From positions 1 to 52,842 of the forward strand of contig JAGLTB010000030.1 in assembly GCA_023270155.1 (NCBI GenBank): DNA of 52,842 nucleotides. Direction: 5' to 3'. A program made the position numbers and the translations under genes. The DNA is from Candidatus Heimdallarchaeota archaeon (lineage in GTDB: Archaea > Asgardarchaeota > Heimdallarchaeia > Heimdallarchaeales > Heimdallarchaeaceae). The notes below the pieces were generated by a model that had not been told where the DNA came from, searched no databases, and saw only the letters and a list, made by a program, of their open reading frames with translations. Below, piece after piece: positions 34,396 through 34,639 of the stretch; positions within the stretch are counted from its first letter, which is position 1; each line of letters opens with the position of its first letter.

Positions 34396-34446
34396 ATAAA
34401 CCTTTTTATGATAAAGGGGTGAAGAAAAATGGCGGACCAGGCAGGA

Positions 34447-34477
34447 TTTTCAGTTATTGACCCTCAAGTCAAATATT
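34447..34477 (-). other. Noncanonical 31-nt tRNA intron in the T-loop (position 59/60)
   Basis: BHB: outer GCAGG/CCTGC, central 4-bp TTCA/TGAA, bulges AA|A and AA|T; internal hairpin TTGAC-TTGAGG-GTCAA. Confidence 0.88.
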
Positions 34478-34499
34478 TTTGAACCTGCGACCTCCGACT

Positions 34500-34515
34500 C
34501 TCTTCAGCAATGCTT
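34500..34515 (-). other. Canonical 16-nt tRNA intron (position 37/38)
   Basis: BHB: outer CCGGC/GTCGG, central CTTC/GAAG, bulges GG|A and AG|A, inner AGC-ATT-GCT hairpin. Confidence 0.92.
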
Positions 34516-34639
34516 CCGAAGGCCGGTGCCTTATCCATGCTAGACTACTGGCCCATTTTAGTAATCTCATCTTTCTCCTTATTTATCTCTTTCTGAAATA
34601 ACTAAAAAATAAGAGTTGTAGAAAGAACTTGCAACTTTT

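Follow-up and report, generated by a model that had tools for sequence, protein, structure and literature searches.

The minus strand of the analysed window harbours, at positions 34554..34430, what is best read as a spliced tRNA-Arg(UCG) gene whose T-loop intron was gained recently, after the split from a sister genome, and belongs to a family of introns that transposes between the T-loops of different tRNA genes. Judged by comparison of sequences, the probability of this combined reading is estimated at roughly 85%. The window, i.e. the whole stretch of DNA that was analysed, is 52,842 nt long and constitutes one contig (C30) of a fragmented MAG of 2.58 Mb (270 contigs, 82% complete). The protein adjoining the tRNA gene has its relatives in Candidatus Heimdallarchaeota MAGs, hence the source is an Asgard archaeon.

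The gene spans 125 nt, including two introns and an encoded CCA, and its cloverleaf can be read directly. On the minus strand the layout is GGGCCAG TA GTCTAGCATGGATAAGGC A CCGGC CTTCGG, followed by 16 nt of intron, then A GTCGG AGGTC GCAGG TTCAAA, followed by 31 nt of intron, and finally T CCTGC CTGGTCC G CCA. The 5' strand of the acceptor stem (GGGCCAG, 34548..34554, minus strand) forms seven of seven pairs with positions 34440-34434 (CTGGTCC), and the anticodon TCG (34517..34519, minus strand) is read directly from CCGGC-CT-TCG-G, intron, A-GTCGG. Intron 1 (AAGCATTGCTGAAGAG, 34515-34500, minus strand) occupies the canonical position 37/38, and intron 2 (AATATTTGACTTGAGGGTCAATAACTGAAAA, 34477-34447, minus strand) lies in the T-loop at position 59/60. 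Removal of both leaves a 78-nt tRNA-Arg(TCG) with a full cloverleaf, the T-loop TTCAAAT, G73 and the encoded CCA, in which the acceptor stem (7/7), the T-stem (5/5) and the anticodon stem (5/5) are completely paired. The sequence-only reading of this DNA had proposed a tRNA-Arg(UCG) gene with two bulge-helix-bulge (BHB) introns, one of them in the T-loop; its coordinates proved exact, and the proposal was further borne out by an orthologue in the sister genome.

In that sister, HMA_bin2.96 (G003), the tRNA-Arg gene is identical base for base, the 16-nt intron included, but it lacks the 31-nt T-loop insert and carries TTCAAATCC at the site which the insert occupies in the present genome (G000). 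All 94 of the 94 nt outside the insert are the same in the two genes, whereas the collinear flanks share 87-93% identity. The relationship of the two genomes is well defined, the neighbour protein being 93% identical and the clade receiving a support of 100/99 in the tree. While other relatives also have 37/38 introns in their TCG orthologues, a T-loop insert was found in none of the other tRNA-Arg(TCG) orthologues of the genus. The comparative evidence makes it likely that this is a real spliced tRNA-Arg(UCG) gene, and the locus presumably represents the organism's gene for this tRNA, the function of which we infer. The T-loop intron would, as part of the reading given above, have entered after the split from G003.

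A 4-bp helix flanked by two 3-nt junction bulges is present at both introns. The BHB of the 37/38 intron consists of a CTTC/GAAG helix, GGA and AGA bulges and a perfect inner helix AGC/GCT; that of the T-loop intron is formed by a TTCA/TGAA helix of 4 bp, AAA and AAT bulges and a TTGAC/GTCAA hairpin, with an imperfect inner helix in which one of the first three inner positions is paired. On account of this one-in-three pairing the T-loop intron is classified as a predicted relaxed BHB, and the 37/38 intron as a strict one (hBHBh'). Thus, of the 3-4-3 geometry claimed earlier for both boundaries, the spacing stands at both, but equal strictness does not. Because intron 2 begins and finishes in runs of A, the sequence by itself leaves its junction free to shift by as much as 3 nt; the BHB geometry selects the one lying between TTCAAA and T (59/60). 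An argument from free energy was also considered for the T-loop BHB and dropped, since the fold z-score is only -2.07 and the TTCA/TGAA helix is missing from the minimum free energy structure (-42.2 kcal/mol, the BHB fold as drawn having -34.5 kcal/mol). The strong evidence for the gene is therefore comparative and not thermodynamic. As one precursor can form both BHBs, the two-step splicing order that had been suggested for this transcript is not needed.

Introns of the same kind are found well beyond this locus. A pattern search of 60 genomes of the class, filtered for full tRNA context, yielded 52 distinct genes with T-loop introns belonging to many isotypes. A stricter pattern applied to 158 Asgard genomes matched 83 places in 47 genomes, these being pattern matches and not each confirmed as a full cloverleaf, and a control pattern gave no matches in the same 158 genomes. 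The combination of nt 57 with its partner in the intron was A-U in 46, G-C in five and G-U in one of the genes of the class, A-C being absent. Among the unique matches in the phylum the corresponding counts were 42 A-U, 35 G-C, 4 G-U and no A-C (Fisher p = 8e-19, kinship ignored). The search pattern permitted A-C, so the covariation is a real test; the pattern does presuppose YGAA and a 3-nt 3' bulge, and is thereby blind to T-loop introns of other geometry. Judging from these matches, T-loop introns are common and structurally constrained in Asgard archaea. Their distribution is uneven, some Asgard families being without any match in the 158-genome search: the large family f8 had none in any sampled genome, and others, e.g. 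f20, had several per genome.

Several side observations may be added. The hairpin loop UUGNGG occurs in 9 of the 52 T-loop introns and in none of 24 canonical introns that these genes also carry, which is partly due to shared families. In the present genome, a tRNA-Val(TAC) gene near positions 5595-5692 of contig G000:C114 carries a 37/38 intron and, at roughly 25/26, a second candidate of 31 nt with a TATG/CATA helix and an inner helix of 3 bp. In two other genomes (G040:C80 and G037:C78), tRNA genes with an apparent TCA anticodon have a T-loop intron and a further insert close to that anticodon; this automatic assignment is uncertain, with only four of five stem pairs, and the genes may belong to another isotype whose introns were misplaced.

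It could be argued that the T-loop insert has disabled the Arg gene and that another tRNA decodes CGA. The local T-loop BHB helix is weak, and with an incomplete genome an intact copy may lie outside the assembly. However, the insert is the only difference from an intact gene in G003 even though the flanks have diverged by ~7-13%, and many single tRNA genes have an insert of this type at precisely this site, its pairing with nt 57 showing compensatory change. In addition, a second intact tRNA-Arg(UCG) gene, which the sequence-only reading had named as part of a possible refutation, did not turn up: allowing up to three mismatches in the 5' half, no other TCG gene was found in the 82%-complete assembly. 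A pseudogene is hence regarded as extremely improbable.

The core of the T-loop intron, TTGACTYGAGGGTCAATAACTGAAAATC, defines a family (A) with four occurrences among 21 genomes of the genus, all in tRNA genes, and a control pattern for this family had no matches in the 21 genomes. Besides tRNA-Arg, the present genome has it in tRNA-Lys(CTT) (G000:C73:26187-26293), and G003 and G013 have it in tRNA-Asn(GTT); the Lys and Arg introns of G000 are two substitutions and one indel apart. Only one of 11 tRNA-Lys orthologues, that of G000, has a T-loop intron, the ten from relatives being without, which points to a second gain in the G000 lineage. The G003 tRNA-Lys gene has a 37/38 intron and that of G000 does not, across a collinear stretch of 3 kb. 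The likely source of the family-A intron is tRNA-Asn. At the end of contig G000:C83, a tRNA-Asn(GTT) gene breaks off within its T-loop (TTCAAATTTATTT), where the G003 orthologue has the family-A intron; a search of the assembly for the missing 3' end of this gene did not find it. In G013, the Asn 5' half is present once more (39-nt match, G013:C288:14801-14839), about 200 bases upstream of a complete two-intron tRNA-Asn gene, with no matching 3' half within the 150 bases read.

A second family (B, core CAGATGCGTTCTG) is found in tRNA-Phe across the genus, as well as in tRNA-Pro(TGG), tRNA-Tyr(GTA) and tRNA-Thr(TGT), often within one genome. The tRNA-Phe(GAA) gene of G000 (G000:C83:7806-7920) contains a 33-nt T-loop intron of this family, into which the Rfam tRNA model misaligned the gene. 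When the family-B core was searched for outside T-loops with three mismatches allowed, the best matches (0-1 mismatches) of known context were T-loop introns, and the weaker ones, which were partly inspected, look like chance. Similarity scores between introns of different isotypes reached 20, compared with a maximum of 10.5 in 4000 shuffled pairs. Chance was rejected as the origin of the insert in view of the empty site in G003, the absence of control matches, the covariation at nt 57 and the presence of the same intron in other tRNA genes.

Similar introns thus reside in different isotypes with unrelated tRNA bodies, and the Arg and Lys gains are limited to G000; such sharing within families A and B bears the marks of intron transposition, as in Thermoproteales. 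The shared introns might instead be old and vertically inherited, with losses from the majority of genes across most lineages and no recent transposition. The genus-wide presence of family B in tRNA-Phe is plausibly vertical, and the tRNA-Asn of G013 has the family-A intron, whereas that of its sister G017 is without, indicating that losses or separate gains do happen. Vertical descent, however, leaves the near-identical introns in the Arg and Lys genes of one genome unexplained, and the confinement of family A in tRNA-Arg, and likewise in tRNA-Lys, to G000 also speaks against it. This explanation is accordingly held to be very improbable.

Under transposition, a family-A copy would have entered the Arg T-loop after the split from G003, and another the tRNA-Lys gene in the lineage of G000, the family being present in tRNA-Asn of relatives. 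Two candidate routes may be envisaged, one by recombination at the DNA level via the conserved GGTTCAAA..TCC of the T-arm, and the other at the RNA level, by reverse splicing, synthesis of cDNA and recombination. The first would amount to gene conversion between T-arms with no splicing-linked step, a version of the preferred explanation to which we assign about an even chance. Short stretches of T-arm sequence on either side of the intron are identical in donor and recipient, and the DNA level has been favoured for Thermoproteales in a review (PMC4090602). When the Arg gene gained its T-loop intron, the 37/38 intron stayed unchanged; this favours local conversion at the DNA level via the T-arm, for a gene replaced by the full-length cDNA of a spliced tRNA would have lost that intron. 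On the other hand, the recipient did not take over the outer T-stem bases of the donor, which differ from its own, and in tRNA-Lys the gain of the T-loop intron coincides with the absence of the 37/38 intron present in G003, which fits the cDNA of a spliced tRNA, i.e. an RNA intermediate. Arg and Lys are two cases that point different ways, and both routes are kept as candidates. A more far-reaching and rather doubtful proposal is that the T-loop introns of Asgard archaea are minimal mobile elements, their excised RNA being reverse-spliced by EndA and RtcB into other T-loops, copied to DNA and recombined; if so, the tRNA-Lys gene of G000 would be the footprint of such a cDNA.

The genome encodes two EndA paralogues, one catalytic (alpha) and one degenerate (beta), and RtcB (E = 1.6e-164). 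The alpha subunit is closest to that of Aeropyrum pernix (3P1Z, E = 3e-36) and has an intact Tyr/His/Lys catalytic triad. Its insertion GVRKPQLGDEFRDP aligns to the crenarchaea-specific loop, with K41 aligned to K44 of A. pernix, and all 20 relatives compared have the lysine of this RKP loop. Aligned to EndA of M. jannaschii, the full-length beta subunit has kept Tyr and Lys and lost the catalytic His. In A. pernix EndA, broad specificity is conferred by the crenarchaea-specific loop and its lysine (PMC6379350). The gene content therefore supports the prediction, already made from the window, of a broad-specificity endonuclease, here of the (alpha-beta)2 type with the crenarchaea-specific loop. 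The likeness to the A. pernix (alpha-beta)2 enzyme (PDB 3P1Z; PMC6379350) extends to two paralogous subunits, the catalytic triad and the loop lysine aligned to K44; the predicted heimdallarchaeal enzyme differs in its full-length beta subunit, which retains Tyr and Lys but not His. Given this gene content and the conservation of the BHBs, both introns would be cleaved by such an EndA and the exons then ligated by RtcB.

The concern that standard tRNA finders could overlook this gene was justified. ARAGORN called no tRNA in the window, Rfam at the gathering threshold had no match there, and a genome-wide search with a tRNA model did not list the tRNA-Arg(TCG) gene either; the tRNAs of the genome were surveyed by tRNA-model and pattern searches. 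The ARAGORN and Rfam misses are to be expected because of the T-loop insert.

The positions published for archaeal tRNA introns include 59/60, and the mechanism by which such introns transpose was called unknown in the same review (PMC4090602). The T-loop intron resembles the non-canonical BHB introns described there in its shortness, 4-bp helix, 3-nt bulges, position 59/60 and the presence of a 37/38 intron in the same gene; the rich sources named are Crenarchaeota and Nanoarchaeota, whereas the present host belongs to the Asgard archaea (Heimdallarchaeota). Intron transposition between tRNA isotypes was reportedly described for Thermoproteales in 2010 (via PMC4033280, PMC4090602), and the similarity of introns in different isotypes and the recent gain are common to both cases; the present one differs in the phylum, in moves from T-loop to T-loop at the same position and in the empty site of a sister genome. 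Meanwhile, abundant non-canonical tRNA introns, several per gene, are reported for the likewise Asgard Atabeyarchaeia and Freyarchaeia (PMC11291895); these are other classes than Heimdallarchaeia, and the consulted passages of that source give abundance and positions with families shared between isotypes unmentioned. The open-access literature searched contained no account of T-loop introns that transpose in Heimdallarchaeia, subscription papers being mostly outside the search. Hence position 59/60 and the transposition in Thermoproteales are already known, and what is added is their occurrence in Asgard archaea, with an unusually clean empty-site pair. The recent gain of the T-loop intron, the movement of its family between tRNA genes and the commonness of such introns in Asgard archaea had all been missed by the sequence-only reading.

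T-loop introns conceal essential tRNA genes of Asgard genomes from common finders, and the tRNA counts and completeness estimates for these genomes are likely too low. The locus and its counterpart in the sister genome represent an orthologous gene pair differing only by a 31-nt intron, in the archaeal group closest to eukaryotes. Such a clean empty-site pair, to which tRNA-Lys of G000 adds a second gain of a family-A intron, makes the question of intron mobility testable.
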